Below are positions 11,314 through 34,452 of a DNA stretch of 34,452 nt, piece by piece. The translations under genes and the position numbers were made by a program. Position 1 is the first letter of the stretch. Each line of letters opens with the position of its first letter. The DNA is from Rubrivivax sp. GTDB taxonomy: Bacteria; Pseudomonadota; Gammaproteobacteria; Burkholderiales; Burkholderiaceae_C. The stretch is taken from positions 1-34,452 of the forward strand of contig JALORQ010000035.1 in assembly GCA_025458805.1 (NCBI GenBank), written 5' to 3'. A model generated the notes under the pieces. The model saw only the letters and a list, made by a program, of their open reading frames with translations, was not told the origin of the DNA and ran no database searches.

Positions 11314-13047
11314 TCAGGCGAACGGGAAGAAGACGGGGATCGCCGCCAGCGCGATGGCGATGAAGACCAGCGACACCGGCAGACCGGCACGCGCGAAGTC
11401 GCCGAGCGTGTAGCGGCCCGGCGACATCACCATGAGGTTGGTCTGGTAGCCGTAGGGCGTCACGAAGCTGCAGCTGGCGCCGTACAGCACGGCCATCACG
11501 AACGGCGCGGGACTCAGCGACAGGTGCTCGGCGACGCCCATCGCGACGGGGAACGCCAGCGCCGCGGCGGCGTTGTTGCTCATCAGCTCGGTGAGTATCC
11601 AGGTCACGACGAGGATGACGGCGAGCGCGGCATACGGGCCGTGATCCGAGGCGCCGGCCATCAGCGCGCCGGCCAGGATCCCGGCGACCCCGGTGCGGAT
11701 CATGACCTCGGAGATGATGAGCGCCGAGGCGATGATGACGATCAGGCCGTACGGCATGTTGCGCCGCAGGTCGGCGACGCGCGCGAACCCGAAGAGCAGG
11801 AACAGCGCCAGCAGGACCATCAGGCCCTTGAGGAAACCGACGACGCCGAACGCCGACAGCGCGATCACCGCGACGAAGCCGGCCATCGCGATCTGGCCCT
11901 TGCGCGGGTCGATGAACTTCTGCACCTCGTGGCGCGAGACGATGACGAAGTTGCGGCTCAGGTTGTTGCGCTTGTCGAAGTCCTTGCCGACGACCAGCAC
12001 CAGCGTGTCGCCGACCTCGAGCGGCACGTTGGCGATCGGGCCGGCCAGCCGCTCGCTGCCCCGGCGCACGGCGACCACCGCGGCGTCGAACTGCGACCGG
12101 AAGTCGACCTCCTTGATGGTGCGCCGCGCCAGCGTGGAGTTGGCCGCGACGACGACCTCGACCAGGTTGTCCAGCGGCAGCTGGTAATGCTGGCCGTGCG
12201 TCTTCAGGCCATCGATCTGCGTCAGCAGGTCGAGCCGGGTGATGTCCCCGGTGAAGACCAGCAGGTCGCCGGCCTGCAGCGCCTCGTCGGGCTCGACCGG
12301 CGCGATGACGCGCCCGTCGCGCACGATCTCGGTCAGGAACAGGTGCGACAGCCGTCGCAGTCCGCCGGCCTCGACCGTGCGCCCGACGAGCGGGGAACCC
12401 GGCGTGACCGTCGCCTCGAGGAAGTATCCCGTGGGGGCCTCGTCGGCCGGCGGCATCGCCTTCAGGATGCGCGGATAGGTCAGCAGCATCGTCGCCGCGC
12501 AGCCGACGACGATCAGGATGCCCACCGGGAAGAGGTCGAAGATGTGCAGCGGCGGCAGCCCGCGCCCGACCATCAGGCTGTTCATCAGCAGGTTGGTCGA
12601 CGTGCCGACGAGCGTGAGGATGCCGCCCAGCGACGCCGCGTAGCACATCGGCAGCAGCAGGCGCGACGGCGGGTGCAGCCGGCTCTGCTTGAGCGGCCCG
12701 AGCAGCGAGGCGACGACCGCGGTGTTGTTGAGGAAGGCCGAATACAGCGCGGTCGCCGCGTAGAGCTTGGCGAGCGCCCAGCGGTAGCCGCCGCGCAGCA
12801 GCGCTTCGGCGGCGCGCTCGAGCAGCCGCGACTTGTCGAGCACGACCGACAGCAGCAGCAGCACGACGACGGTGACCAGCCCCTCGTTCGTGAACTGCGC
12901 GAGGCTGTCCTTGACGCTGATGAAGTCGACGACGACGAAGACCAGCGCGATCGAGCCGAACACGGTGGCCGGCGCGTGCCGGCCTCGGATCAGCTCGAAC
13001 ACCAGCCAGGCGAGCCCGGCCAGCACCAGCGCCTGCTGGAGCGACAT
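11314..13047 (-). CDS. SLC13-family permease with two RCK_C domains (probable sulfate transporter)
   Basis: This 577-residue inner-membrane protein has the divalent anion:sodium symporter/ArsB-like fold. Helices fill about residues 1-200 and 400-577, with the SLC13 signatures LYSAFLNNTAVVASLLGPL and GTSTNLLMNSLMV in the first half and TELMSNNAAAALAFPVAMG in the second. Between them lie two soluble TrkA-C/RCK_C domains (about 205-290 and 300-385), which probably gate transport. This build is that of the SAC1/SLT-like sulfate permeases, often found next to sulfate adenylyltransferase genes. Here it follows cysNC by 19 bases on the same strand, so sulfate uptake is the best reading. The substrate assignment rests on context. 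Confidence 0.9.
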   Translation of the reverse strand: MSLQQALVLAGLAWLVFELIRGRHAPATVFGSIALVFVVVDFISVKDSLAQFTNEGLVTVVVLLLLSVVLDKSRLLERAAEALLRGGYRWALAKLYAATALYSAFLNNTAVVASLLGPLKQSRLHPPSRLLLPMCYAASLGGILTLVGTSTNLLMNSLMVGRGLPPLHIFDLFPVGILIVVGCAATMLLTYPRILKAMPPADEAPTGYFLEATVTPGSPLVGRTVEAGGLRRLSHLFLTEIVRDGRVIAPVEPDEALQAGDLLVFTGDITRLDLLTQIDGLKTHGQHYQLPLDNLVEVVVAANSTLARRTIKEVDFRSQFDAAVVAVRRGSERLAGPIANVPLEVGDTLVLVVGKDFDKRNNLSRNFVIVSRHEVQKFIDPRKGQIAMAGFVAVIALSAFGVVGFLKGLMVLLALFLLFGFARVADLRRNMPYGLIVIIASALIISEVMIRTGVAGILAGALMAGASDHGPYAALAVILVVTWILTELMSNNAAAALAFPVAMGVAEHLSLSPAPFVMAVLYGASCSFVTPYGYQTNLMVMSPGRYTLGDFARAGLPVSLVFIAIALAAIPVFFPFA

Positions 13048-13066: not shown

Positions 13067-14817
13067 TCAGCCGGCGATCACGCCGCGCTCGCGCAGCACC
13101 TCGATGACGCGATCGGCCGCTGCCTCCGCGCCGAGCGCGGTCGTGTCGAGGCGGATCTCGGGCGCCTCGGGCGTCTCGTAGGGCGAGTCGATGCCGGTGA
13201 AGTTGGCCAGCTCGCCGCGCCGCGCCTTCCTGTACAGCCCCTTGACATCGCGGCTCTCGGCCACCTCGAGCGGCGTGTCGACGTGGATCTCGAAGAACTC
13301 GCCCTCCTCGAGCAGTGCGCGCGCCATCCGCCGCTCGGCGCGGAACGGCGAGATGAACGCGGTGATCACGATCAGCCCGGCATCGACCATCAGCCGGGCC
13401 ACTTCGGCGACGCGGCGGATGTTCTCGACGCGGTCTGCTTCGGTGAAGCCGAGGTCCTTGTTGAGCCCGTGGCGCACGTTGTCGCCGTCGAGCAGGTACG
13501 AATGGCGACCGAGCGCGTAGAGCTTCTTCTCGACGAGGTTGGCGATCGTCGACTTGCCGGCACCGGACAGGCCGGTGAACCACAGCAGGACCGGCTTCTG
13601 CCCCTTCTGCTCGGCGCGCGCCTTCTTGTCGACGTCGACGTGCTGCAGGTGGATGTTGTGTGCGCGACGCAGCGCGAAGTGCAGCATCCCGGCGCCGACC
13701 GTGTTGTTCGTCATCCGGTCGATCAGGATGAAGCCCCCGGTCTCGCGGTTGGTCTTGTACGGGTCGAAGGCGATCGGCCGGTCGAGCGCGATGTTGCAGA
13801 CGCCGATCTCGTTGAGATCGAGCTTCTTGGCCGCCAGGTGCTCGAGCGTGTTGACGTTGACCTTGTACTTCGGCTCGGTCACCGTCGCGCCGACGGTGCG
13901 GGTGCCGACCTTGAGCAGGTACGGGCGCCCGGGCAGCAGCGGCTCGTCGGTCATCCAGACGATGGTGCACTCGAACTGGTCGGCGACCTCGGCCGGGCTC
14001 GACGCCGCCGAGATGACGTCGCCGCGCGAGATGTCGACCTCGTCGTCGAGCGTGATCGTCACCGACTGCCCGGCCACCGCGAGCGGCAGGTCGCCGCCGT
14101 GGGCGACGATGCGGGCGACGCGGCTCTCGCGGCCCGAAGGCTGGACGCGCACGCGGTCGCCGGGCCGCAGCTGACCACCGGCGATCATTCCGCAGAAGCC
14201 GCGGAAGTCGAGGTTCGGCCGGTTCACCCACTGGACGGGCAGCCGCAGCGGCAGAGACTGCTGGCGCGTCTCGTCGATCTCGCAGGTCTCGAGGAAGGCC
14301 ATCAGCGTCGGTCCGTGGTACCACGGCATGCGGGCGCTGGGCTCGGTCATGTTGTCGCCCTTGAGCCCAGACAGCGGGATCGAGACGATGTCCTCGAGCC
14401 CGATCTGGCGCGCGAACTCCCGGTATTCGGCATCGATGCGCTCGAAGACGTCCCTGGACCAGTCGACCAGGTCCATCTTGTTGATCGCGAGCACCACGTG
14501 CCGGATGCCGATCAGGCTGACCAGGTAGCTGTGGCGGCGCGTCTGGGTCAGCACGCCCTTGCGCGCGTCGATCAGGATCACCGCGAGGTCGGCGGTCGAC
14601 GCGCCGGTGACCATGTTGCGCGTGTACTGCTCGTGGCCGGGCGTGTCGGCGACGATGAACTTGCGCCGGTCGGTGCTGAAGAAGCGGTAGGCGACGTCGA
14701 TCGTGATGCCCTGCTCGCGCTCGATCCGCAGGTGATGAAGCGCAGCAGGCTCTTCTTCTCGTGCTGCTCGAGGTAGCGCTCGATGTCGGTCGCAATGAGG
14801 TCGGAAACATGTGCCAT
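13067..14817 (-). pseudogene. cysNC: Bifunctional sulfate adenylyltransferase subunit 1/APS kinase CysNC, internal deletion with frameshift
   Basis: CysN is the GTPase subunit that drives CysD to make APS; the fused CysC phosphorylates APS to PAPS. The N-terminus is normal ([20 protein letters not shown], then [11 protein letters not shown]), but at about 14724-14728 the sequence jumps, in another frame, to [15 protein letters not shown]. About 50-55 codons are missing, including P-loop GxxxxGKS. After the jump [12 protein letters not shown] (14630-14647), NKMD, the beta-barrel domains and a complete APS kinase with P-loop GLSGAGKST (about 13546-13573) are intact. The longest single frame after the jump begins at an ATG at 14614, giving 515 residues without the GTP-binding start. 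The APS-kinase half could survive if translation restarts there. It starts one base after the cysD stop. A sequencing or assembly loss is a real alternative to a true mutation. Confidence 0.88.
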
Positions 14818-14818
14818 G

Positions 14819-15724
14819 TCAGAAGTACCCTTCCTGCTTCTTCTTCTCCATCGAGGCCGCCTGGTCGTGATCGATCATGCGGCCCTGGCGCTCGCTGGTC
14901 GTGGTCAGCAGCATCTCCTGGATGATGTCGACCAGCGTCTCCGCATTCGACTCGACGGCGCCCGAGAGTGGGTAGCAGCCGAGCGTGCGGAAGCGCACCT
15001 TCTTCGTCACCGGGGACTCGCCGGGCTCGAGGCGCGACGCCATGCGCTCGTCGTCGACCATGATCCAGGTGCCGCCGCGCCAGACCACCGGCCGCTCGGC
15101 CGCGAAGTACAGCGGCACGATCGGGATCTTCTCGAGGTGGATGTACTGCCAGACGTCGAGCTCGGTCCAGTTGCTGATCGGGAACACGCGGATCGACTCG
15201 CCCTTGTGCTTGCGCCCGTTGTAGAGGTGCCAGAGCTCGGGGCGCTGGCTCTTCGGATCCCAGCGGTGCTGCGCGGTGCGGAAGCTGAAGATGCGTTCCT
15301 TGGCGCGGCTCTTCTCCTCGTCGCGCCGCGCGCCGCCGAAGGCGACATCGAAGCGGTGGTGGTCGAGCGCCTGCTTGAGGCCCTGCGTCTTCCACAGGTC
15401 GGTGTGGATCTGCGAGCCGTGGTCGAACGGGTTGATGCCCTGTGCCTTCGCCTCGGGGTTCTGCCAGACCAGCAGTTCCATGCCGATCTCGCGCGCCATG
15501 CGCTCGCGCATCGCGTACATGTCGCGGAACTTCCACGTCGTGTCGACGTGCAGCAGCGGGAAGGGAGGCGGGGCAGGGTGGAAGGCCTTGCGCGCGAGGT
15601 GCAGCATCACCGCACTGTCCTTGCCGATCGAGTACAGCATCACCGGCCGCTCGGCCTCGGCGACGACTTCGCGCAGGATGTGGATGCTCTCGGCTTCCAG
15701 CCGTTGGAGGTGGGTCAGGTTCAT
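14819..15724 (-). CDS. cysD: Sulfate adenylyltransferase subunit 2 CysD
   Basis: CysD (301 aa, full length) is the catalytic ATP-pyrophosphatase-type subunit of ATP sulfurylase; with CysN it makes APS from sulfate and ATP in the cytoplasm. Seen are the PP-loop [15 protein letters not shown], the segment [40 protein letters not shown], and the C-terminal family end [10 protein letters not shown]. It is the first gene of the minus-strand run and is separated by 124 bases from the divergent cysQ-like gene. Because its partner CysN is damaged here, ATP sulfurylase activity depends on whether that lesion is real or another copy exists. Confidence 0.97.
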
Positions 15725-15848: not shown

Positions 15849-16628
15849 ATGAGCCACGACATCCCCGATCCCCTTCGATTGCTGCAGGCCGTCGAGCACG
15901 TCGTCGACGAGGCCTCGGCCATCGTGATGCAGGTCTATGCGCAGGACTTCGCGGTACGGGCGAAAGACGACGCGTCGCCGGTCACCGAAGCGGACGAACG
16001 CGCCGAAGCCTGCATTGTCGCGGCGCTGGGCGCGCTGACGCCCGACGTTCCGGTCGTTGCCGAGGAAGCCGTCACGGCCGGGCGCGTTCCTTCGCCCGGA
16101 AGGCTGTTCTGGCTCGTCGATCCGCTCGACGGCACCAAGGAGTTCGTCAGCCGCAACGGCGAGTTCACGGTGAACGTCGCTCTCGTGAAGGACGGACGGC
16201 CGCTGCTGGGTGTCGTCGGCGCCCCCGCGCTGGGGCGCCGGTTCGCCGGCCTCGTCGGCGAAGGGGCATGGGTCGGCGACGCGGACGGCCGCAGGCCGAT
16301 CCGCTGCCGTGCCGTGCCGCCCGAGGGGCTGACGGTGGTCGCCAGCCGGTCGCATGGCGATGCCGCCGCGCTCGACGCCTTCCTGGCCGGCCGGCGCGTC
16401 GCGAGCCTCGCGTCGGCGGGATCGTCCCTGAAGCTGTGCCTGGTGGCCGAGGGCCGCGCCGACCTGTACCCGCGCCTCGGGCGCACGATGGAGTGGGACA
16501 TCGCGGCCGGTCACGCGGTGCTCGCCGCAGCGGGCGGGCGCGTGGCCGACCTGCAGGGGACCGAGCTGCGCTACGGGAAGCCCGGCTTCGAGAATCCGCA
16601 CTTCGTCGCGAGCGGCCCGGCGGACTGA
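15849..16628 (+). CDS. cysQ: CysQ-like 3'(2'),5'-bisphosphate nucleotidase
   Basis: This 259-residue Mg-dependent phosphatase of the inositol monophosphatase superfamily removes the 3'-phosphate of PAP (and PAPS), the by-product of sulfotransfer and of PAPS reduction. Metal-binding motifs are clear: VVAEEAV, then FWLVDPLDGTKEFVSRNGEFTVNVALV, and EWDIAAGHAVLAAAGG near the C-terminus. The DPLDGTKEF form is the one typical of CysQ rather than SuhB. The ATG at 15849 (MSHDIPDP) was chosen over the GTG at 15822, which lies in the presumed promoter. It is divergent from cysD and leads toward the sulfotransferase operon, which fits PAP recycling. Confidence 0.93.
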   Translation: MSHDIPDPLRLLQAVEHVVDEASAIVMQVYAQDFAVRAKDDASPVTEADERAEACIVAALGALTPDVPVVAEEAVTAGRVPSPGRLFWLVDPLDGTKEFVSRNGEFTVNVALVKDGRPLLGVVGAPALGRRFAGLVGEGAWVGDADGRRPIRCRAVPPEGLTVVASRSHGDAAALDAFLAGRRVASLASAGSSLKLCLVAEGRADLYPRLGRTMEWDIAAGHAVLAAAGGRVADLQGTELRYGKPGFENPHFVASGPAD

Positions 16629-18195: not shown

Positions 18196-19014
18196 ATGGA
18201 CCTCAACCACATCGTCTTCATCGTGATGGACAGCTGCCGCTGGGACAGCTTCCAGGCCGCGGCCACGCCGAACATCGACCGCCTGGGTGTCGCGCAGCGG
18301 CGCTATGCCTACGCGTCGTGGACGGCGCCCTCGCACCACGCGTTCGCGATGGGGCTGATGCCGCACACGAGTCCGCGCGACGTCTTCGCCTCCGAGGTCT
18401 ACAAGGACGAGTACGCGCAGTGGCGCGAGCGCACCGGGCACGGCGGCATCGAGTTCAAGGCCTTCCTGCCCGATCTGTCGCTGCCCAAGGTGCTGCGCAC
18501 CCTGGGCTATCGCACCGTGGCACGGGTCTCGATGCCGGTGCTCAACCAGAGCACGCTGATCAGCCGCGACTTCGACGACTACAAGCTGATGCCGACCCAC
18601 AACGAGTTCCATCGCATGGTCGACGAGATGGAGTTTCCCGACGGCGAGCCGCACTACTACTTCCTCAACCTCGGCGAGACGCACTACCCGTACATGCTCG
18701 ACGGCAGCCGGCTGCCGCGGATCTCGGGCGTGCACGGCGCGCTCAAGGCGATGGACGACCCCGCGGTGGCGACCAGCAACCCGACGGGCTTCGATCCGGG
18801 CCAGATGGAGATGCTGCGCCTGCAGCAGATCAAGTGCGTCGAATACCTCGACGGCCAGATCGGCCGCCTGATGGCGGCGACGCCGCCCAACACCCACTTC
18901 ATCGTCACCGCCGACCACGGCGAGCTGTTCGGCGAGGAGGGCTACTTCGGCCACGGGCCCATCATGCACGAGAAGTGCTTCGAGGTGCCGTTCGTCGAGG
19001 GGCGGCTCGGCTGA
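18196..19014 (+). CDS. Compact sulfatase-like (alkaline phosphatase superfamily) hydrolase
   Basis: This 272-residue protein has the metal-site layout of the alkaline phosphatase/sulfatase superfamily: VFIVMDSCRWDSF (Asp12) at the N-terminus, TPNIDRL, the probable nucleophile region SWTAPSHHAFAMG with Thr43, and FIVTADHGELFGEEGYFGHG near the C-terminus. The CxPSR motif of true formylglycine sulfatases is absent, so Thr43 is the more likely nucleophile and the reaction (sulfate, phosphate or phospho-group transfer) is open. It is much shorter than typical 450-550-residue sulfatases and ends soon after the metal-binding histidines, with no sign of a frameshift. No signal peptide is seen. The sulfotransferase starts 17 bases downstream. 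Confidence 0.85.
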   Translation: MDLNHIVFIVMDSCRWDSFQAAATPNIDRLGVAQRRYAYASWTAPSHHAFAMGLMPHTSPRDVFASEVYKDEYAQWRERTGHGGIEFKAFLPDLSLPKVLRTLGYRTVARVSMPVLNQSTLISRDFDDYKLMPTHNEFHRMVDEMEFPDGEPHYYFLNLGETHYPYMLDGSRLPRISGVHGALKAMDDPAVATSNPTGFDPGQMEMLRLQQIKCVEYLDGQIGRLMAATPPNTHFIVTADHGELFGEEGYFGHGPIMHEKCFEVPFVEGRLG

Positions 19015-19954: not shown

Positions 19955-20362
19955 ATGGAAAGCCACTTCGATCCGCCCAAGCGACGCCGCATCGCGCCCG
20001 TGCAGGGCGATCCGGTGACGACGCACCCCGACCTCGACCGTCTGACCCCGCACCAGCGCGCGCTGCGCGAGGCGCTGCTGCGCGAGTTCAAGTCGCGCCG
20101 CGCGAAGAAGTTCGTCGAGCGCCAGATCCAGTACATCAACGCCAACCGGCAGGTCGCCGAAGGCATCAAGATCCTGTTCGACGAGCACGGCCAGCCGCCG
20201 GCCAACGCCCCGCTCGAGGACATCATCGAGGAGCGCCGGCAGCTCGAGTACCAGGTCAAGTGGTTCGAGGCGATGCTGCTCGAGATGCAGACCCGGCTGC
20301 TGCGCGTGCGCGAGATCGAGGCGCTGGCGCTCGACGTGCTCGCGCGCTCGCCCGGCGAATGA
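19955..20362 (+). CDS. Small basic helical protein of unknown function
   Basis: I do not recognise this 135-residue protein. It has a charged N-terminus (ESHFDPPKRRRIAP), a helical middle with many basic residues (EFKSRRAKKFVERQIQYINANRQ), and a C-terminal helix likely to form a coiled coil (LEDIIEERRQLEYQVKWFEAMLLEMQ). There is no signal peptide or membrane segment. The ATG at 19955 lies 17 bases after the sulfotransferase, and its stop overlaps the start of the NodT gene (ATGA). The setting suggests a cytoplasmic helper of the sulfotransferase or of the export proteins. High G/C third positions and the tight overlap support a real gene. Confidence 0.8.
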   Translation: MESHFDPPKRRRIAPVQGDPVTTHPDLDRLTPHQRALREALLREFKSRRAKKFVERQIQYINANRQVAEGIKILFDEHGQPPANAPLEDIIEERRQLEYQVKWFEAMLLEMQTRLLRVREIEALALDVLARSPGE

Positions 20363-21921
20363 ACCCAGACAAGCGCCGCATGGCCCTCCACGCCCCCCCG
20401 TCCCTGCGCAGGGCCCGACTCGCGTCGGCGGCCGTGCTGGTCTCGCTGCTCGTCGTCGGTGGATGCGCGATGGGCCCCGATTACCAGCGGCCCGAGGTCG
20501 AGCTGCCGTCATCGTTCGGTCGCGCCGCGCCTGCGGCCGGCGCGCTGGTTCCCGACACGCTTCCGCTGCCGGTGCACGGCACCGCGCAGCAGCCCGTGAC
20601 GGCCGGACCGGCGGAACTCGTCGACGCGCCCTGGTGGCAGTCCTTCGGTGATCCGCAGCTCGACGCGCTGATCCGCATCGCGCTCGACGAGAACAAGGAC
20701 CTGCGCATCGCCGCGCTGCGCGTGCAGCAGTTCCAGGGCTCGCTCGACGTGGCGAGGTCCGAGCGCCTGCCCCGCGTCGGCGTGCAGGCGCTCGGCGGCA
20801 GCCAGTGGCTGAGCGAGAACCGCCAGGTGCGTCTTCCTCTGGGCACGGATCCGACGGGCGAGGAGTATTCGGTCGCGCTCACGCTGGGCTGGGAGCTCGA
20901 CCTGTGGGGCCGCATCAGCCGCTCCAACGAGGCGGCGGCGGCCGAACTGCTATCGGTCGAGGAGAACCGGCGTGCGCTCGTCGCGTCGCTGGTGTCGCAG
21001 ATCGCCTCGACCTACCTGCAGCTGCTGTCGGTCGACCGCGAGATCGAGCTCATCGGCCGCATCGTCGACAGCCGGCGCGAGAGCGTGCGGCTGCTGGCCG
21101 CCAAGCTGGCCGGCGGCCGCATCGGCGAGCAGCCGCTCCTCTCGGCCCGTGTCGAGCTGGCGCAGCTCGAGTCCGGCCTGGCTGCGAAGGAGCGCGAGGC
21201 GGCGACGCTCGAACACGCGCTGGCCACGCTGATCGGCCGCGCCCCCGGGCCGGTCGTGCGCGGGCGCCGCTTCGACACCCTGTCGCTGCCGGCGATCCCG
21301 GCCGGCGTCCCGGCGCAGGTCATCGCCCAGCGCCCCGACGTGCGGCAGGCCGAGCAGGATCTGGTGGCCAACAACGCCCGCATCGGCGTGGCCAAGGCGC
21401 AGTACTTTCCGGTGCTGGCGCTGACCGGCCAGAACGGATTCGCGAGCGAGGACCTCAGCAAGCTCACGATGCTGTCGTCGAACTTCGGCTTCTTCGGCCT
21501 CACGCTGCTCGGGCCGCTGTTCGACGGCGGTCGCGTCGCCGGTCTGGTGCGCGAGGCCGAGGCACGTCAGCAGGCCAGCGTCAACGCCTACCTGCGCGCG
21601 GTGCAGGCGGCGCTGCGCGAGGTCGAGGATGCCCTGGTGTGGCACGGCAAGATGGTGCAGCAGGGCGAGGCCCGGGCGCGCGAGGTGCAGGCTCTGGCCG
21701 AGCAGGCCGACTGGTACCGGCGGCGCGAGGCGGGTGGCGCCGGCGAACTGATCGAGGTGCTCGGCGCCGAGCGCCTGGTCTACCAGGGACAACTCGCCCA
21801 GGCGCAGACGAGGCGCGACCAGGCGCTGGCGCTGATCGCCGTCTACAAGGCGATGGGCGGGGGCTGGAGCGTCGCCGATCACGTGCCGGCCGACCTGCGC
21901 AAGGACGAACAGAAGCCATGA
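20359..21921 (+). CDS. NodT-type outer-membrane efflux lipoprotein (TolC-like)
   Basis: This 520-residue outer-membrane factor would form the exit channel of a tripartite pump. It begins with a lipoprotein signal, VLVSLLVVGGC (Cys36), then the family hallmark AMGPDYQRPEVELP and APWWQSFGDPQLDALI. Two OEP repeats of long helices follow, with LGWELDLWGRISRSNEAAAAEL and GPLFDGGRVAGLVREAEARQQ. Total length and the NodT motif are normal. The ATG at 20359 overlaps the previous stop (ATGA), and its own stop overlaps the start of the HlyD fusion in the same way, so the two products probably work as a pair. No RND or ABC pump gene lies nearby. Confidence 0.95.
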   Translation: MNPDKRRMALHAPPSLRRARLASAAVLVSLLVVGGCAMGPDYQRPEVELPSSFGRAAPAAGALVPDTLPLPVHGTAQQPVTAGPAELVDAPWWQSFGDPQLDALIRIALDENKDLRIAALRVQQFQGSLDVARSERLPRVGVQALGGSQWLSENRQVRLPLGTDPTGEEYSVALTLGWELDLWGRISRSNEAAAAELLSVEENRRALVASLVSQIASTYLQLLSVDREIELIGRIVDSRRESVRLLAAKLAGGRIGEQPLLSARVELAQLESGLAAKEREAATLEHALATLIGRAPGPVVRGRRFDTLSLPAIPAGVPAQVIAQRPDVRQAEQDLVANNARIGVAKAQYFPVLALTGQNGFASEDLSKLTMLSSNFGFFGLTLLGPLFDGGRVAGLVREAEARQQASVNAYLRAVQAALREVEDALVWHGKMVQQGEARAREVQALAEQADWYRRREAGGAGELIEVLGAERLVYQGQLAQAQTRRDQALALIAVYKAMGGGWSVADHVPADLRKDEQKP

Positions 21922-24368
21922 CCGATCAGTCCAAGAAAGTCGCGCTGCCGGCCTACCTGCCGCGTCGCCTCGATGCGTTCCGCATCGTCCGCGGCGACCA
22001 GACCAGCTACATCCTGCGCGACAAGCTGCTCGACAAGACGCACGATCTCGAGCCCTGGCAGTTCTTCGTCCTCGAGGTGCTGCCGGGCTGCGAGACGGCG
22101 CCCAAGCTGCTTTCGGTGTTCGAGGACCGCTTCGGACGCAAGATCACCGAACCGGAGGTGCTCGGCTTCTTCGGCTGGCTGGCCGACCAGAAGCTGCTCG
22201 ACGCCGACGCCGAGAACCATCCGCTGCTCAAGCCCTTCACGCGGCCCGGCTACGCCGTCGAGCAGGGGCTGGCCAAGCCGAAGTCGTTCGAGGAACTGGC
22301 AGCCTTCATGGCGCCCGCGGGGGCGCAGCCGGCCGCTCCGGCCGCGCCCGCCGCCGCGGAGGAGGCGGACCTGCCGCCGGGCGTCATCGACGCCGACAAC
22401 CTGGACCCGCGGCGCCACGGCAAGGTGCTGTGGCTGTTCTCGCTGCAGCCCTTCGTTCGCTTCGCCAGCCCGTTCTTCGCGCCGCTGAAGTGGGCGATCT
22501 ACGTCGTGCCGGTGCTGGCGCTGACGGCGCTGTTCCTGCTGCTCGAGTTCGGCCGCGTGGCCGTCGCCGACCTGCGATCGGTCCAGGGGCTGACGACCCT
22601 GGCCTCGCACGTGGTGTTCAGCCTGTTCACGGTCAACCTGTTCGCGGTCCTGACGCAGGCGACCGTCGCGCATCACTACCGCGCGACCGTCAGCGACATG
22701 GGCGTGGCGCTGTACCTGGGCTTCCTGCCGCGTCTGGTCGCCCGCATCCGCAACGTGCGCCAGCTCAACCGGCGCGAGCGCATGTGGGTGCACGGCGGCC
22801 CGCTGCTGATGCGGCTGTTCCTGTTCAGCCTGGGCGTGCTCGTCTGGTACAACAGCCGCGACGGCGCGCCGCTGCTGTCGCAGGTCGGCCTGTCGCTGGC
22901 GTTCATCGCCGGCATCAACATGATCGTCGGCAGCGCCAACCCGCTGGTGCGGGGCAACGGCTATCACCTGCTGGCCGCCTTCATCGACGAGCCGCACCTG
23001 CGCGGCAAGGCCTACCGCGCCTTCATGAACCGCCTGCGCGGCGGACCGGTGACCGAGAAGGATTCGAACGTCCTCGCCGGCTATGCGCTGGCCACCTTCC
23101 TCTACATCTACGTCATCGGTGCGCTGGCGGTCTACATCGTCGCCAACTTCCTGCAGCGCCTCGAGCTCGGCGGCGCGGCTTACATCGTCGCCGGCGTGCT
23201 CGGGCTGTATCTGCTGTACCGCTCGATCACCAAGTTCCGCCGCATCAGCCAGGCCTACGACCGAGCGATGCAGTTCGACCGCTGGCGCAAGCGCGCGCTG
23301 CCGGCCGAGGGGGGCGAGACACTGCAGACCGAGGAGCCCCAGGGCAGCCGCACCGCGATCTACCTGCGCCGTGCGCTGGCGCTGTCGCTGCTGCTGCTGC
23401 TGTTCCTGCCGTACCCGTACGAGCCGGGCGGCGACTTCCAGGTCTTCCCGAGCGAGAGGCAGGTCCTGACGACCGACGTGCCGGGCATCGTCGAGGAGGT
23501 GTTCTTCGACGGCGGCGAACAGGTGCGCAAGGGGACGGTCGTCGCGCGGCTGGCGAGCACCGACCTGCAGGCGCAGGTCGCGACGCTGGGCGCACGGATC
23601 GCCGAGCAGGAAGCCGTGATCGCGGACCTGCGTGCGAAGCCCAAGCGCGAGGAGATCCTGGTCGCGCAGAAGGCGCTCGAGACGGCGCTCGAGCGGGCAC
23701 GATTCAGCGCGGCGCGCGTGCCTCGCACCGAGAAGCTGTACCGCGAGCGCCTGGTCTCGTTCGAGGAGTTCGATGCCGTGCGCAAGGAGGCCGAGGTCGA
23801 CGCGCGCGAGGTGGCGCAGCGCGAGGCCGCGCTGGCGCTGGCCAAGGTCGGCACGACGCCGCAGAAGCTGCAGGCCGAGCAGGCCCGCCTCGACAGCCTG
23901 CGCGAGGAACGCGCCGGCCTGGAAGGTCGCGTGCGCCGGACCGAACTCGTGATGCCTTTCGACGGCACGATCCTGACGCTGCGTCTCCGGGATCGCAAGG
24001 GCAGCGTGCTCGAGAGGGGGCAGCCTTTCGCGACCGTCGAGAACGCGCGGTCGGTGACCGCCGAGATCGAGGTACCCGAGTCCGAGATCGGCTTCGTGCG
24101 CAGCGACGGCGAGGTGCGGGCGCGGCTGAACGCCTTCTCGGACCAGATCTTCACCGGGCGCGTCGCGACGATCGACCGCAACGTCACGACGAAGGAGTTC
24201 GGCAACGTGGTGAAGGTCGTCGCGACCATCGACAACCTCGATGGCCGCATCAAGAGCGGGATGACCGGCCACGCCAAGGTCCAGGGCGAGACCATGCCGG
24301 TGTGGCGCGCGTTCTCTCTCGCGCTGCAGCGCTTCTTCGCGGTCCAGGTCTGGTCCTGGATCCCCTGA
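21918..24368 (+). CDS. Fusion of PqqD-like, degenerate M50-like membrane domain and HlyD adaptor
   Basis: This 816-residue inner-membrane protein has three parts. Residues about 10-105 resemble a PqqD/RRE-like winged helix (DLEPWQFFVLEVLPGCETAPKLL). After an Ala/Pro linker, residues about 170-460 are a multi-helix domain like the M50 site-2-protease type. Residues about 480-800 are an HlyD/membrane-fusion adaptor, with an anchor helix RALALSLLLLLFLPYPY, a lipoyl-like half GIVEEVFFDGGEQVRKGTVVARL, long coiled coils and the second half VMPFDGTILTLRLRDRKGS. The M50 zinc motif HExxH is missing: AVLTQ (243-247) occupies its place in my ungapped comparison, and NPLVRGNGYHLLAAF replaces the DGY-type site. 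It is therefore probably a transport scaffold, not a protease. Its start overlaps the NodT stop by four bases. Confidence 0.88.
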   Translation: MTDQSKKVALPAYLPRRLDAFRIVRGDQTSYILRDKLLDKTHDLEPWQFFVLEVLPGCETAPKLLSVFEDRFGRKITEPEVLGFFGWLADQKLLDADAENHPLLKPFTRPGYAVEQGLAKPKSFEELAAFMAPAGAQPAAPAAPAAAEEADLPPGVIDADNLDPRRHGKVLWLFSLQPFVRFASPFFAPLKWAIYVVPVLALTALFLLLEFGRVAVADLRSVQGLTTLASHVVFSLFTVNLFAVLTQATVAHHYRATVSDMGVALYLGFLPRLVARIRNVRQLNRRERMWVHGGPLLMRLFLFSLGVLVWYNSRDGAPLLSQVGLSLAFIAGINMIVGSANPLVRGNGYHLLAAFIDEPHLRGKAYRAFMNRLRGGPVTEKDSNVLAGYALATFLYIYVIGALAVYIVANFLQRLELGGAAYIVAGVLGLYLLYRSITKFRRISQAYDRAMQFDRWRKRALPAEGGETLQTEEPQGSRTAIYLRRALALSLLLLLFLPYPYEPGGDFQVFPSERQVLTTDVPGIVEEVFFDGGEQVRKGTVVARLASTDLQAQVATLGARIAEQEAVIADLRAKPKREEILVAQKALETALERARFSAARVPRTEKLYRERLVSFEEFDAVRKEAEVDAREVAQREAALALAKVGTTPQKLQAEQARLDSLREERAGLEGRVRRTELVMPFDGTILTLRLRDRKGSVLERGQPFATVENARSVTAEIEVPESEIGFVRSDGEVRARLNAFSDQIFTGRVATIDRNVTTKEFGNVVKVVATIDNLDGRIKSGMTGHAKVQGETMPVWRAFSLALQRFFAVQVWSWIP

Positions 24369-28524: not shown

Positions 28525-31500
28525 ATGCCCAAGTTCGAGACGCTCGTCTTCACGCCCAGCGGATGGCACGCGGCGACGCTTGCCGTCGCGGCATGCCGAG
28601 CCGGTGCGGTCGGCGTGGTCGATGCGCAGTTCGACCGGGGTGCTGCGCGTGGCGTGGGGCTGATCGAGTCGCTGGCCGCCGGCGGCACGGCGGGGCTGGG
28701 GCTGCGTGCCCCTCGGCTCGACGTCGACGCGATAGGCTCGCTGGCCGGTCTCGTCGCCCGCGGCGCCTTGCGCTGGCTGATCGTCGACGTCGCCGACGCG
28801 GAACGGCTTGCCGATGCGCTTCGTCCCTTGCGCGCTTCGGGCCTGCTTGTCCTGGGCGAGGTCTGGCAGGCTCCCGGCACGGTGGCGGTCGATGCGGGCG
28901 CATTCGACGGCCTGATCGTCAAGGGCAACGAATCGGGCGGGCTGGTCGGCGAGGACGCCACCTTCATCCTGCTCCAGAAGTGGCTCGGACGCACCGAGGT
29001 GCCGCTCTACGTGCGCGGCGGCCTGACCCCCCAGGTGGCCGCTGCCTGTGCGGCGGTCGGTGTGGCCGGCGGGGTGCTCGACAGCCAGGTGCTGCTCTTC
29101 GACGAGGCGGGGTTGCCGCCGGCCACGCGTGCCGTCATCGCCGCGCTGTCGGGCAACGAGACCGTGGCGGCCGGCGACGGCGAGCGTGGCGAGTACCTGC
29201 GCGTGCTCAGCCGTCCCGGGCACGCGGTCGCCAAGGCATTCATCGCCGAGGCCGAAGGGCTGGCGCAGGAGGAGTTGCTTCGCCTGGCCGAAGGACGCAT
29301 GGGCTGGGACGACCCGAAGTCGGGGCTGCTGCCGGTCGGTCACGACGTCTGCTTCGCCGCCGCGTGGCGCGAGCGCCACGGCCACCTGGCCGCGTTGCTG
29401 GCCGACATCGACCGCGCCGTCGGGCGCAGCCTGCGCGTCGTGGCCGCGCGTCCGCCGCTCGCCGAGCGCGCCGCGCTGGCGCAGGCGTTCGGCATCCGCC
29501 TGCCGATCGTGCAGGGCCCGATGACGCGCGTCAGCGATGTCGCCGAGTTCGCGCTCGCGGTCGCCGAGGGCGGCGCGCTGCCGATGGTCGCCTTCGCGCT
29601 GCTCAAGGGCGAGGCGCTCGAGCGTCTGCTCGCGAAGACCGCCGCGCTGCTCGGCGACCGACCCTGGGGCATCGGGCTGCTCGGCTTCGCGCCGCAGGCG
29701 CTGCTCGACGAGCAGCTCGCGGCCGCGATCCCGCACCGGCCGCGCTACGCCATCATCGCCGGAGGCCGTCCGGACCAGGCCGTGCGGCTGGAAGCCGCCG
29801 GCGTCCCGACCTTCCTGCACGTGCCGTCGGCGGCGCTGGTGCCGATGTTCGTGCAGGAGGGCGCGCGCCGCTTCATCTTCGAGGGCCGCGAGTGCGGGGG
29901 CCACATCGGCCCGCTGTCGAGCTTCGTGCTGTGGTCGACGATGGTCGACAAGCTCGTCGAGCTGATCGACGGGCGCAAGGTCGCCGCCTCGGAGCTCGAG
30001 CTGGTCTTCGCCGGCGGCATCCACGATACCGTGTCGTCGGCGATGCTGCAGGTGCTGGTCGCTCCGCTGGTCGAGCGCGGCGCGCCGGTGGGCGTGCTGA
30101 TGGGCAGCGCCTACCTGTTCACCCAGGAAATCGTGGCCAGCGGTGCGATCGTGCCGCGCTTCCAGCAGGAGGTGCTGGCCTGCGAGCACACCGTCAATCT
30201 CGAGTCCGGCCCCGGGCATGCCAGCCGCTGCGCCTACACGCCGTTCGCGCGCGACTTCTTCCGCCAGCGCGCGCAGCTGCGCCGCGACCGCGTGCCGGGT
30301 GACGAGGCCCGGCGCGTGCTCGATGACCTGATCCTCGGCCGGTTGCGCATCGCGTCGAAGGGGACCGTTCGAGCCGGGGACAGTGGCGCACTGCAGCGGC
30401 TCGACGAGTCGCGGCAGCACGAGGAAGGCATGTACATGCTGGGCCAGGTGGCGACGCTGCGCGACCGCGTCACCACCATCGCCGCGCTGCACGACGAGGT
30501 GACCCGCGGCGCCGCCGATCTGCTGCGCGCGCGTGCGGCCGCCACGGGGGCGGCCGACGATCGGGTGCTCCCGGCGGCGGCGCCGGCGGACGTCGCGATC
30601 GTCGGAATCGCCTGCCTGCTGCCGAAGGCCGACGGCACGCGCGCCTACTGGGAGAACATCCTCGCCAAGGTCGACGCGATCACCGAGATCCCGTCGCACC
30701 GCTGGGACTGGCGTCTGTACTTCGACGCCGACCGCAGCCGTCCCGACCACATCTACTCGAAGTGGGGCGGCTTCCTCGACGACCTGGCGTTCGACCCGGC
30801 GCGCTACGGCATGCCGCCGAATGCGGTGAAGTCGGTCGACCCGATGCAGCTGATGGCGCTCGAGGTCGCGCGGCGCACGCTCGAGGACGCCGGCTACGAC
30901 CGCCGTCCCTTCGACCGCGAGCGCGCGTCGGTGATCGTCGGTGCCAGCGGCGGCGCCGGCGACGTCGGCCAGCAGTACGGCCTCCGTTCGGAGCTGCCGC
31001 GCTTCACCGGCACGCTGCCGCATGACGTCGCGGGCCGGCTTCCCGAGTGGACCGAGGACACCTTCGCCGGCATCCTGCTCAACGTCGTCTCGGGCCGCAT
31101 CGCGAACCGGCTCAACTTCGGCGGGCTCAACTTCACCGTCGATGCGGCCTGCGCGTCGTCGCTGACGGCCGTCTACCACGGTGTCGCCGAACTCGTTGCC
31201 GGGCGCAGCGACTTCGTCGTCGCCGGCGGCGTCGACACCGTGCAGGGACCTTTCGGATACCTGTGCTTCAGCAAGACGCAGGCGCTGTCGCCGCGCGGGC
31301 GCTGCCGGACCTTCGACAGCACCGGCGACGGTATCGTCATCAGCGAGGGCATCGCGATGGTGGCGCTCAAGCGCCTGGCCGATGCCGAGCGCGACGGCGA
31401 TCGCATCTACGCGGTGATCAAGGGCGTCGGCGGCAGCAGCGACGGCAACGCCAAGGGCATGACCGCGCCGCTGCCGGCCGGACAGATGCGCGCGATGCGC

Positions 31501-34452
31501 CGCGCCTACGCGATGGCCGGCTTCGGCCCCGAGACGGTCGGGCTGTTCGAGGCGCATGGCACCGGCACGGTCGCCGGCGACACCGCCGAGCTCGAGAGCA
31601 CGGCCGCGATGATCCGCGAGGCCGGCGGCACGCCGCGCAGCGCGGTCGTCGGCTCGGTGAAGACGATGATCGGCCACACCAAGGCGACCGCGGGCGTCGC
31701 CGGCCTGGTCAAGGCCGCGCTCGCGCTGCACCACCGCGTGCTGCCGCCGCACCTGCACGTGCAGGTGCCCAACGAGCGGTTGCGCGACCCGTCGAGCCCG
31801 CTGTACGTGCTCGACGAGGCCCGGCCCTGGGTCGCGGGCACGCAGCCGCGGCGCGCGGCGTGCAGCGCGTTCGGCTTCGGCGGCACCAACTTCCACGTCG
31901 TGCTCGAGGAGTACGCACGCGAGTACCGGCCCTGGCTCGAGCCGGTGACCAGCGACCACTGGCCGGCCGAACTGCTGATCTGGTCGGCGTCCGACCGCGA
32001 CGCGCTGCTGGCAGCGCTGCGCGCCTTCCGGGCTCAGCTGCCGCTGCCGGCCACCGTCGCGCTGCGCGACGTCGCGGCGACGCTGGCCTCGGCCTGGGAC
32101 GGCGAGGCCACCGAGCGCTTCGCGCTGGTCGTGCGCGGGCTCGACGAGGCGGTCGCGCGGGTCGACGCCGCGTTGGCTGCGCTGGCCGGGGGGTCGATGC
32201 TGCCGCCAGGAGTCTGGCACCGCAGCGGCCCGCCGCCCGCCGGCAAGGTCGCGGTGCTGTTTCCGGGCCAGGGCTCGCAGTACCCGGGGATGGGGCGCGA
32301 GCTCGCGGTGCACTTCCGTGAGCCGGCCGAGGCGCTCGGCGACGCCGACCGCGTGCTGGCCGACGACTTCGAGGCCCGCTTCGGCGCCGGATCGCGGCTG
32401 TCGCGTTTCTTGCACCCGCGCGGCGCGTACGACGAGGCGGCCCAGGGGGCCGCCCGCGCGGCGCTGACGTCGACCGACGTCGCGCAGCCTGCGCTCGGCG
32501 CCATCGAGGTCGGGCTGTGGCGGCTGATGCAGCGCTTCGGACTGAAGGCCGACATGGTCGCCGGGCACAGCTACGGCGAGTTCGTCGCGCTGCACGTGGC
32601 CGGCGCCATCGACTTCGCGGCGCTGATGGCGTTGTCTGCCGCGCGCGGCCGGTTCATCGTCGATGCCGCGCGGGACGCCGGTGCCGAGCTCGGCACCATG
32701 GCCGCGGCGACGGCATCGCGCGATGCCGTCGAGCGCGCGATTGCAGGAATCGAAGGCGTCGTCGTGGCCAACCACAACGCACCGGCGCAGAGCATCCTCT
32801 CGGGCCCTCACGCGGCGGTGCAGGCGGCGCTCGAACGTCTCGCCGCGCAGGGCATCGAGGCCCAGCCGATCCCGGTCGCGGCGGCCTTCCACTCGGCCCT
32901 GATGCGGCCGGCGCAGGCGCCCTTGGCGGCGCTGGTCGATGCCACGCCCTGGCAGCCGGTCGCGCTGCCGGTGTATGCCAACACGACCGCGGCACCGCAC
33001 CCGGCGGATGCCGATGCGTCGCGGCGGCTGATGGCCGAGCATCTTGTGCGTCCGGTCGAGTGGGTGGCCGAGGTCGAGGCCATGTACCGCGACGGTGCCC
33101 GCGTCTTCGTCGAGGTGGGGCCGAAGACCGTGCTGACGCGCCTCGTGGCACGCATCCTCGACGGGCGCGAGCATGTCGCGGTCGCGCTCGACGACGGGCA
33201 GGGCCTCGCCGGTTGGCTCGGTGCCGTCGGTCAGCTGCTGCTCGCCGGCGTCGCGATCGACGTGCAGGCGCTGTTCGATCGGCGCGACTGCAGGCCCGGC
33301 GATCCGCAGCGTCTGGCGCTGCTGGCGCGCGAGACGCCCCTTCCGAAGACCGCGTGGTGGCTCAACGGCAGCGGCGCGCGTCGCGTCGGCGAGCCGGTGC
33401 GGCAGATCGGCGTGACGCTCGAGCAGGCCCGGTCCGCGCCCGCGATGCCGCCGCGCGGCGACGCGCCCGCAGCGGCCGCGTCGCCGGTTGCCGTACCCGC
33501 GCCTGCCGGCGAACACCCTTCGTCCGACCCCCCGTCCCCGCGTGCGCCGTCGGCAGCCCCGGCCGCTGCGCCCTCGCCGCAGCCGCGACCGGCGGTCACC
33601 CATCCCACCCCCCATGCCGCCCCGAGGAGGACCCTTCGCATGGACGACCGACGACCGCCCCCGGTCACTGCCGATGCGGCGGTGCTGGCGGCCTACTTCG
33701 ACACGATGCGCCAGTTCCTGGAGACCCAGGAACGGGTGATGTCGGCGTACCTCGGCCAGGCGCCGTCGCTGCCTGCCGGAATGCGCATGCCGAGGCCGCC
33801 GGTCTCGCTGCCGGCCGTTGCACAGCCCGCGCCGACGCTGCCGCAGCCTGTGGCCGTGGCTCCGATGGCCTTGCCCGCCGCGGCCCCTGTGGCGCCGCGT
33901 GCCCCCGCCCCTGTGGCTGTCCCCGCGCCGGCGCCCGCCGCGGCGGCACATGCGGCCCCGGCGCAGCCCGCGCCGCCCGTCGCCGCCGCGCCGGCCCCTG
34001 CGGCAGCCGCCGCGGCGTCGGGCGGCCTGACCCGCGGCGCGATGCAGGACATGCTGCTCGGCATCGTCGAGCAGAAGACCGGCTACCCGAAGGACATGGT
34101 CGGCCTGGACCAGAACCTCGAGTCCGACCTCGGCATCGACTCGATCAAGCGCGTCGAGATCGTCGGCGCGATGCTGCAGGGGCTGCCCGAAGCCGTGCGC
34201 GCCGCTCTGGCCGACAGCCGGGGCAAGCTCAACACGCAGCCGACGCTGGCGGGAATGCTCGACCTGCTGACCGCGGCGGCCGGCGCCGGGGCGGGCGCTC
34301 AGGCGGCCGCATCGGAGGCCCGCGTCCCTTTTGATTCGGCCGGGGCGGAACCCCAGGCGGCGTCCCGCCTGCCGTCCCGGCATGTCGTCGAATCCGTGGC
34401 CGAGGCGCCGGACGCGCGCGCCTCGCGCCGGCTGCAGGTTGGTCGCTTCGTC
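28525..34452 (+). CDS. Giant PfaA-like iterative polyketide/fatty-acid synthase, 3' end beyond window
   Basis: The frame reads open for 1976 codons to the last base, so the gene continues outside. It starts at ATG 28525 after GAGGTGA (28514-28520). Domains in order: NPD-like domain 1 (about 1-235, KGNESGGLVGE from Lys133), NPD-like domain 2 (about 310-600, GRECGGHIGP at 454-463, the FMN-site type of PfaD), KS (689-1128; Cys876 in DAACASSL, His1011 in EAHGTGT, His1051 in GHTKATAG), AT (1242-1560; Ser1349 in GHSYGE, FHS with His1456, a malonyl-type pattern), Ala/Pro linkers around a short helix, and an ACP (about 1835-1915; Ser1873 in LGIDSIKRVEI, the PUFA-synthase form). Further reducing domains probably follow. 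It should build a long or polyunsaturated acyl chain or polyketide from malonyl-CoA in the cytoplasm; the product is unknown. Confidence 0.92.
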   Translation, partial: MPKFETLVFTPSGWHAATLAVAACRAGAVGVVDAQFDRGAARGVGLIESLAAGGTAGLGLRAPRLDVDAIGSLAGLVARGALRWLIVDVADAERLADALRPLRASGLLVLGEVWQAPGTVAVDAGAFDGLIVKGNESGGLVGEDATFILLQKWLGRTEVPLYVRGGLTPQVAAACAAVGVAGGVLDSQVLLFDEAGLPPATRAVIAALSGNETVAAGDGERGEYLRVLSRPGHAVAKAFIAEAEGLAQEELLRLAEGRMGWDDPKSGLLPVGHDVCFAAAWRERHGHLAALLADIDRAVGRSLRVVAARPPLAERAALAQAFGIRLPIVQGPMTRVSDVAEFALAVAEGGALPMVAFALLKGEALERLLAKTAALLGDRPWGIGLLGFAPQALLDEQLAAAIPHRPRYAIIAGGRPDQAVRLEAAGVPTFLHVPSAALVPMFVQEGARRFIFEGRECGGHIGPLSSFVLWSTMVDKLVELIDGRKVAASELELVFAGGIHDTVSSAMLQVLVAPLVERGAPVGVLMGSAYLFTQEIVASGAIVPRFQQEVLACEHTVNLESGPGHASRCAYTPFARDFFRQRAQLRRDRVPGDEARRVLDDLILGRLRIASKGTVRAGDSGALQRLDESRQHEEGMYMLGQVATLRDRVTTIAALHDEVTRGAADLLRARAAATGAADDRVLPAAAPADVAIVGIACLLPKADGTRAYWENILAKVDAITEIPSHRWDWRLYFDADRSRPDHIYSKWGGFLDDLAFDPARYGMPPNAVKSVDPMQLMALEVARRTLEDAGYDRRPFDRERASVIVGASGGAGDVGQQYGLRSELPRFTGTLPHDVAGRLPEWTEDTFAGILLNVVSGRIANRLNFGGLNFTVDAACASSLTAVYHGVAELVAGRSDFVVAGGVDTVQGPFGYLCFSKTQALSPRGRCRTFDSTGDGIVISEGIAMVALKRLADAERDGDRIYAVIKGVGGSSDGNAKGMTAPLPAGQMRAMRRAYAMAGFGPETVGLFEAHGTGTVAGDTAELESTAAMIREAGGTPRSAVVGSVKTMIGHTKATAGVAGLVKAALALHHRVLPPHLHVQVPNERLRDPSSPLYVLDEARPWVAGTQPRRAACSAFGFGGTNFHVVLEEYAREYRPWLEPVTSDHWPAELLIWSASDRDALLAALRAFRAQLPLPATVALRDVAATLASAWDGEATERFALVVRGLDEAVARVDAALAALAGGSMLPPGVWHRSGPPPAGKVAVLFPGQGSQYPGMGRELAVHFREPAEALGDADRVLADDFEARFGAGSRLSRFLHPRGAYDEAAQGAARAALTSTDVAQPALGAIEVGLWRLMQRFGLKADMVAGHSYGEFVALHVAGAIDFAALMALSAARGRFIVDAARDAGAELGTMAAATASRDAVERAIAGIEGVVVANHNAPAQSILSGPHAAVQAALERLAAQGIEAQPIPVAAAFHSALMRPAQAPLAALVDATPWQPVALPVYANTTAAPHPADADASRRLMAEHLVRPVEWVAEVEAMYRDGARVFVEVGPKTVLTRLVARILDGREHVAVALDDGQGLAGWLGAVGQLLLAGVAIDVQALFDRRDCRPGDPQRLALLARETPLPKTAWWLNGSGARRVGEPVRQIGVTLEQARSAPAMPPRGDAPAAAASPVAVPAPAGEHPSSDPPSPRAPSAAPAAAPSPQPRPAVTHPTPHAAPRRTLRMDDRRPPPVTADAAVLAAYFDTMRQFLETQERVMSAYLGQAPSLPAGMRMPRPPVSLPAVAQPAPTLPQPVAVAPMALPAAAPVAPRAPAPVAVPAPAPAAAAHAAPAQPAPPVAAAPAPAAAAAASGGLTRGAMQDMLLGIVEQKTGYPKDMVGLDQNLESDLGIDSIKRVEIVGAMLQGLPEAVRAALADSRGKLNTQPTLAGMLDLLTAAAGAGAGAQAAASEARVPFDSAGAEPQAASRLPSRHVVESVAEAPDARASRRLQVGRFV
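33625..33642 (+). promoter_or_regulatory. Internal in-frame ribosome binding site and ATG within the synthase
   Basis: AGGAGG at 33625-33630 is followed after nine bases by ATG at 33640, in the same frame as the synthase. The reading from there (MDDRRPPPVTADAAVLAAYF) begins the segment with the short helix and the ACP. The site lies between two Ala/Pro-rich linkers, where a protein break would do little harm. Confidence 0.4.

Follow-up and report, generated by a model that had tools for sequence, protein, structure and literature searches.

The question raised by this locus is what kind of synthase is encoded at the end of contig JALORQ010000035.1 of a Rubrivivax sp. (assembly GCA_025458805.1), and what it makes. 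The stretch of DNA analyzed, referred to here as the window, comprises positions 1 to 34,452 of this contig (34,452 nucleotides). The reading frame at 28525-34452 of the forward strand starts with an ATG at 28525 and stays open to the end of the window, which is also the end of the contig, giving a truncated protein of 1976 amino acids (aa). Its layout from the N to the C terminus is NPD1-NPD2-KS-AT-ACP, that is, two nitronate-monooxygenase-like units followed by a ketosynthase, an acyltransferase, and an acyl carrier protein. We put at slightly better than even the chance that this protein is the large subunit of a secondary-lipid synthase made up of two proteins, which would work iteratively with full reduction and belong to a tandem-enoyl reductase (ER) group that includes ArsA, that NPD1 is a built-in partner of NPD2, and that the product is sulfated.

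The gene and its tandem NPD front end were confirmed. A preliminary description of this DNA had placed two NPD-like units ahead of KS-AT-ACP in one chain, the second with a GGH motif and the first, with GGL, possibly noncatalytic; the arrangement was recovered by Pfam, phmmer, and profile comparison, and both motifs were found. NPD2 (29458..30519, forward strand, residues 312-665) was assigned by sequence as a flavin mononucleotide (FMN) ER domain of the FabK/PfaD type, with a TIM-barrel fold, QGPM and ECGGH kept, and the catalytic His of motif III in place (GRECGGHIG at residues 454-462). The best Pfam NMO stretch covers residues 317-653, and two stretches are matched at a loose E ≤ 1. NPD1 (28525..29424, forward strand, residues 1-300) is a degenerate FabK/NMO-type unit. 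The tandem assignment was to be abandoned if residues 1-235 lacked NPD similarity, but such similarity was found and extends to about residue 300. In phmmer, residues 1-319 matched FabK structures (5gvj, E 4e-7, over residues 99-237), a profile built from 72 NPD1 sequences matched FabK with E 2.5e-32 over profile positions 13-301, and NPD1 and NPD2 matched each other in profile comparison (probability 97, E 1.4e-10), which places NPD1 in the FabK/PfaD fold family by sequence. The AlphaFold2 model of residues 1-665 had a mean pLDDT of 94.8 and a pTM of 0.94. Fold matches of the tandem model (VIA-align rows) are a scant test of NPD1.

The motif III of NPD1 reads GNESGGLVG at residues 134-142 (ESGGL at its core), with Leu140 at the position of the catalytic His. 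A genome scan with search patterns that sit in NPD2 gave at least 589 pattern matches, of which at least 549 were confirmed, and the best 80 were kept as loci. In the 80 aligned NPD1 rows the motif position is R in 26, W in 19, F in 16, L in 5, K in 4, V in 3, I in 2, and Y, A, E, S, and H in 1 each. Since the His is thus absent in 79 of 80 rows, one catalytic reductase (NPD2) with a degenerate partner (NPD1) is the likeliest constitution of the front end, and the suspected loss of catalysis in the first unit is probable. The NPD2 His was present in 81 of 81 rows, but it belonged to the search pattern, so that conservation figures for NPD2 are partly circular.

The remaining active sites of the window synthase were also found intact. 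The ketosynthase (30589..31761, forward strand, residues 689-1079; Pfam ketoacyl-synt at 689-954 and 962-1079) has Cys876, His1011, and His1051, the acyltransferase (32257..33174, forward strand, residues 1245-1550, the extent of the Acyl_transf_1 match) has Ser1349, and the ACP core (34054..34194, forward strand, residues 1844-1890, the extent of the PP-binding match) has LGIDSIKR at 1869 with Ser1873, after which the gene leaves the contig. The preliminary description had looked to the 3' sequence for further domains and partner genes, and these were located on a second contig, C87 (L108), which was found when a relative's partner protein was used to search the same genome. At the end of C87, a frame of 805 aa (L108:17393-19810, reverse strand) encodes a ketoreductase (KR) with its YxxxN and a dehydratase (DH) with the motif HxxxGxxxxP, and is 64% identical to the synthase of genome G024; it is very probably the continuation of the window synthase. 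It is followed by partner genes (L108:12555-17389, reverse strand) for a KS (387 aa) and an AT-DH-phosphopantetheinyl transferase (PPTase) protein (1222 aa), which correspond to one 1595-aa gene in G024 and to one frame in G014. Next come an ACP-like protein of 99 aa (E about 0.001), a PF01663 phosphodiesterase-family protein, an alpha/beta hydrolase, and a 488-aa protein with no Pfam match, and this gene order is kept in G024 and G014. The gene calls at C87 and at the loci of relatives are codon-bias calls made in this analysis. As the catalytic residues and the NPD2 His are in place, a full reduction cycle is possible.

The preliminary description had further proposed a distinct class of synthase, and this was not upheld. 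NPD1 and NPD2 occur in tandem in 79 of the 80 relatives, the exception (L046) starting at a contig edge, and the relatives belong by record title to Pseudomonadota, Planctomycetota, Acidobacteriota, cyanobacteria, Bacteroidota, and others. They include L083, which we take to be ArsA of Azotobacter vinelandii from the species, the gene order, and the arsABCD description in PMC4824345. A fused pfaDA has also been mentioned (PMC13291983). Literature searches found no paper describing ArsA-type proteins with a double ER, the published domain map of ArsA lying outside the literature covered. The main claim is thus already known once ArsA is recognized; the new-class reading is replaced by one that ties the front end to a characterized enzyme, and the cluster is of more interest than the front end.

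Several features of other members were recorded. Of 80 loci, 59 extend beyond the synthase, with a type III polyketide synthase (PKS) in 3, a partner KS or AT in 51, and neither in 5. Among 54 chains that reach the KR, 40 have one ACP and 12 have 3 to 5 (L044, L049, L059, L069, and others). Tandem-NPD synthases are plasmid borne in Methylosinus, Beijerinckia, Streptomyces, and a Rhodobacteraceae strain (L017, L018, L019, and L020), which suggests mobility. They are also carried by the anammox Candidatus Brocadia genomes L053 and L081; a literature search on Brocadia members and ladderane lipids gave nothing on this synthase family. The synthase of L072 (Desulfobacula) has phosphodiesterase and hydrolase homologues downstream.

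The proposed relationship to polyunsaturated fatty acid (PUFA) synthases was supported by profile comparison. TIGR02813 was the best profile for the KS-AT region, at 833.5 bits compared to 592 for the next model; this is below its curated cutoff of 1010.1 for a full chain, and the window chain is truncated by the contig end. In a KS tree, the node uniting the window subgroup (Burkholderiales, Pseudomonas, Rhodobacterales, and Fischerella) with the ArsA subgroup, to the exclusion of the sampled modular PKS KSs, had a support of 93. This tree used 78 of 159 extracted rows (156 + 3), with duplicates and many near relatives left out and without PfaA references; it came from a short search without bootstrap, 26 of its 75 inner branches are weak, and several outer rows have long branches. 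The window KS was 49-50% identical to two Fischerella KS-AT genes, labeled Hgl-like in this analysis from their layout, compared to mostly 31-41% for full-length KSs taken as modular (partial ones reached 46%). An ordinary modular PKS was therefore rejected. The PDB ranking gives no evidence of a PUFA link, as the top match of KS-AT was 7zma ("Putative polyketide synthase," 540 bits, above CurL at 382 bits) and the best 60 of 92 matches included no PfaA. Instead of the multiple tandem ACPs and separate PfaD of PfaA systems, one ACP stretch was found in the window synthase, as in the full-length relative P0002, and the ER is fused. The chain does share the tandem NPD-KS-AT-ACP-KR organization of ArsA (the KR being supplied by C87), but its KS lies outside the ArsA subgroup, into which the Methylosinus and Beijerinckia plasmid genes fall, and its neighbors differ. 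ArsA proper was accordingly rejected, and by the KS tree the window synthase is placed in a sister group.

What is new here is a CurM-like sulfotransferase together with CysD, CysNC, and CysQ upstream of the synthase, genes which the preliminary description had not connected to it. The PAPS (3'-phosphoadenosine-5'-phosphosulfate)-type sulfotransferase (PF13469; 19032..19937, forward strand) had two PDB matches at E ≤ 0.001, namely, 4gox ("Polyketide synthase," 7.5e-22), which we take to be the olefin-synthase sulfotransferase domain, and 4gbm (CurM, 5.4e-21). On the reverse strand are CysN-CysC, the sulfate adenylyltransferase large subunit fused to adenosine-5'-phosphosulfate kinase (13067..14614, its called start lacking about 120 model positions), and CysD, the small subunit (14819..15724); there is little space between the CysN-CysC frame and CysD (13067-14819), possibly reflecting another frame break. 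CysQ, a 3'(2'),5'-bisphosphate nucleotidase, lies at 15879..16628 on the forward strand. Parts of this upstream set recur in G014, G024, L033, L034, and L036. Literature searches for sulfotransferases with PUFA-like synthases found nothing relevant.

The other genes of this region are a DASS/CitMHS-type anion permease with TrkA_C (11314..13047, reverse strand), for which sulfate is a possible substrate, and, on the forward strand, an STM4013-like hydrolase of the alkaline phosphatase superfamily (18196..19014, scoring under the model cutoff), a 135-aa protein of no assigned family that is conserved beside the sulfotransferase (19955..20362), a TolC-type outer membrane efflux protein (20359..21921), and a protein with a C-terminal HlyD-type adaptor (21918..24368). 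Large proteins with no telling Pfam match are encoded at 16781-18175 (DUF11 only), 24470-25792, 25902-27122, and L108:8090-9556; in some relatives, homologues of the 488-aa protein and of the 24470-25792 product are again found close to the synthase.

The association of these genes was examined by co-occurrence. Among 61 genomes including the source genome, the full-length synthase was present only in G000, G014, and G024 (ten other matches were partial, at 26-40% identity), and both the sulfotransferase (E ≤ 1e-8) and the phosphodiesterase (E ≤ 1e-20) were present in the same three and in no others. For a second comparison, 25 synthase genomes (24 for the phosphodiesterase) were chosen from the 80 loci and the source genus, most of them being nearer ones. 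The sulfotransferase was found in 18 of the 25, on the contig of the synthase and within about 25 kb in 15 (in one of these, G075, at only 34% identity) and on another contig in G066, G068, and G070. Rubrivivax albus ICH-3 carries the synthase as well as the sulfotransferase. The phosphodiesterase (E ≤ 1e-10) was found in 20 of 24 genomes, in 18 of them on the contig of the synthase at 38% identity or more (the G063 contig being taken from its twin G014); the matches in G081 and G082 were weaker, at about 30%, and G067, G076, G079, and G080 gave none. CysN-CysC (E ≤ 1e-60) was found in 16 of 25, nearly full length at 63% or more in 12, 10 of these on the contig of the synthase; A. vinelandii gave a CysN-CysC match at 48%.

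From the domains, the gene content, the loss of the His, and the co-occurrence, the following pathway is proposed. The large subunit would be NPD1-NPD2-KS-AT-ACP-KR-DH, of about 2,790 aa, and the second KS-AT-DH-PPTase, followed by the small ACP. On a single ACP, AT would load malonyl, KS would condense, and KR, DH, and NPD2 would act in turn, NPD2 presumably using FMN and NAD(P)H to reduce the enoyl-ACP. NPD1 would be a copy that has decayed and lost reductase activity but serves as the second protomer of a pseudo-dimer with NPD2, because the ERs of this fold that have been studied work as dimers and, in thraustochytrids, ERb pairs with ERc as a heterodimer (PMC13311796). Once complete, the long-chain acyl or hydroxyacyl product may be released by the alpha/beta hydrolase, and the sulfotransferase, judging by gene content, may sulfate a hydroxyl left on it. 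CysD and CysNC would supply the PAPS and CysQ would remove the PAP, and export of the product may fall to the HlyD/TolC pair.

A number of observations weigh against this proposal. The ends of the window contig (C81) and C87 do not overlap, about 14 residues being missing as judged by eye against P0002, and in this metagenome-assembled genome the partner gene has a frame break inside the KS, representing either an assembly error or decay. The three genomes sharing the synthase, sulfotransferase, and phosphodiesterase form one genus, and the 3-of-61 figure therefore overstates independence. The sulfotransferase was absent from 7 of 25 genomes (G064, G074, and G079 to G083) and is thus not in every tandem-ER system; in G064 the synthase is near a contig edge, and G079 and G080 are the two ArsA genomes searched. 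CysD, CysNC, and CysQ could serve another sulfated product. One NPD1, that of L072, does have a His (ETGGHVG), as is expected if NPD1 stems from an active copy. Finally, NPD1 might still bind a cofactor, since its glycine pair 165-166, which aligns with the FMN phosphate site, is kept; together with five more positions, E136, G139, Q151, G165, and G166 do not vary across 71 rows, and the phosphate site may therefore persist.

Of the other explanations, an unlikely one is that sulfate acts as a leaving group, the mechanism described for CurM and for the olefin synthase of cyanobacteria (PMC3903477 and PMC3908369): a beta-hydroxyacyl-ACP would be sulfonated and released by the hydrolase, and decarboxylation with loss of sulfate would give a long-chain terminal alkene. 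The two structural matches of the sulfotransferase belong to this family by sequence, and a discrete ACP-like protein and a hydrolase are present in the cluster. However, the sulfotransferase is a free protein rather than being fused with a thioesterase to a PKS module, the 14 PDB matches of the hydrolase at 1e-12 comprise esterases, epoxide hydrolases, and similar enzymes but no CurM thioesterase, the phosphodiesterase, export genes, and second hydrolase have no role in such a scheme, and L072 has a hydrolase beside the synthase with no sulfotransferase match in the genome. We give a low probability to both NPD units being active, with NPD1 performing other flavin or nicotinamide chemistry (e.g., as an isomerase/dehydrogenase like FabX) that sets double bonds. 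The invariance of E136, G139, G165, and G166 would suit it, and FabX is among the fold matches (to NPD2), showing that the fold can do other chemistry; yet in 61 of 80 rows a bulky R, W, or F takes the place of the His, motif I was not recognizable at the N terminus of NPD1, either in the window synthase or across the nine rows inspected, and conservation is lower in NPD1 (mean majority fraction, 0.48) than in NPD2 (0.68), NPD2 being the search target. That the sulfate genes are chance neighbors of an ordinary very-long-chain fatty acid synthase is improbable: CysD and CysN genes are common in cysteine synthesis and 7 of the 25 genomes lack the sulfotransferase, but 15 of the 18 sulfotransferases found lie close to the synthase on its contig, and the same 3 of 61 relatives hold both. 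It is very improbable that the synthase builds an alkyl chain destined for phenolic lipids and passes it to type III PKSs encoded elsewhere, for although the order NPD1-NPD2-KS-AT-ACP-KR is that of A. vinelandii, the KS is outside the ArsA subgroup, the genes after the partner on C87 encode the ACP-like protein, phosphodiesterase, and hydrolase and not a type III PKS, the source genome (76% complete) has no Chal_sti_synt_N match over the cutoff, and an extra DH and an extra KS-AT subunit are present.

With sulfation of a secondary lipid as the preferred reading, we tentatively suggest, at somewhat less than even confidence, a widespread sulfolipid pathway in Rubrivivax, Pseudomonas, Rhodobacterales, and Fischerella, in which a PUFA-like synthase with one active and one dead ER is joined by a free CurM-type sulfotransferase with a dedicated PAPS supply; the products would be very-long-chain lipids bearing sulfate or, if elimination follows, terminal alkenes. 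Literature searches found no description of such a pathway. A branch of uncharacterized secondary-lipid clusters would be linked to sulfate activation, pointing chemists to 35S-labeled or sulfate-bearing lipids.

Comparison to known systems places the locus as follows. The phenolic-lipid synthase ArsA (arsABCD) is "Type P" among the 20 types defined by Shulse and Allen in 2011 (PMC3098273). Like the window synthase, L083 has tandem NPD units, a degenerate first unit (GGW), and then KS-AT-ACP-KR in one chain; unlike it, L083 showed no C-terminal DH and is followed by genes for a DH-PPTase protein and two type III PKSs, whereas the window system has a KS-AT-DH-PPTase subunit, ACP, phosphodiesterase, hydrolase, sulfation genes, and a separate KS subgroup. 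The fused pfaDA secondary-lipid synthases of Ottowia, Aquimarina TRL1, and Flavobacterium N502540 also have an ER ahead of PfaA, and the pfaBC partner in Aquimarina and Flavobacterium likewise carries a PPTase, but all three are linked to a PKS-nonribosomal peptide synthetase and the ER is not described as double in the excerpts of PMC13291983. The swf clusters of sponge symbionts similarly combine a one-module PKS/fatty acid synthase with a sulfotransferase, but have the order KS-AT-DH-ER-KR-ACP and a reductase-sulfotransferase fusion, with no tandem NPD mentioned in the excerpts of PMC3908369; identity with swf was rejected on domain order. The CurM and olefin-synthase sulfotransferases, the nearest solved relatives of the cluster enzyme, sulfonate a beta-hydroxyacyl substrate and are PKS domains with a thioesterase next to them (PMC3903477), whereas the window sulfotransferase is a separate gene. 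The thraustochytrid PUFA synthase has two paired ER units of the same fold, but ERb and ERc are separate proteins, each retaining the catalytic His and having FMN bound in the crystal (PMC13311796). In nearly every member of the present family examined, the decayed reductase copy is perhaps a built-in partner, and the tandem would then be an in-chain analogue of the ERb/ERc heterodimer.
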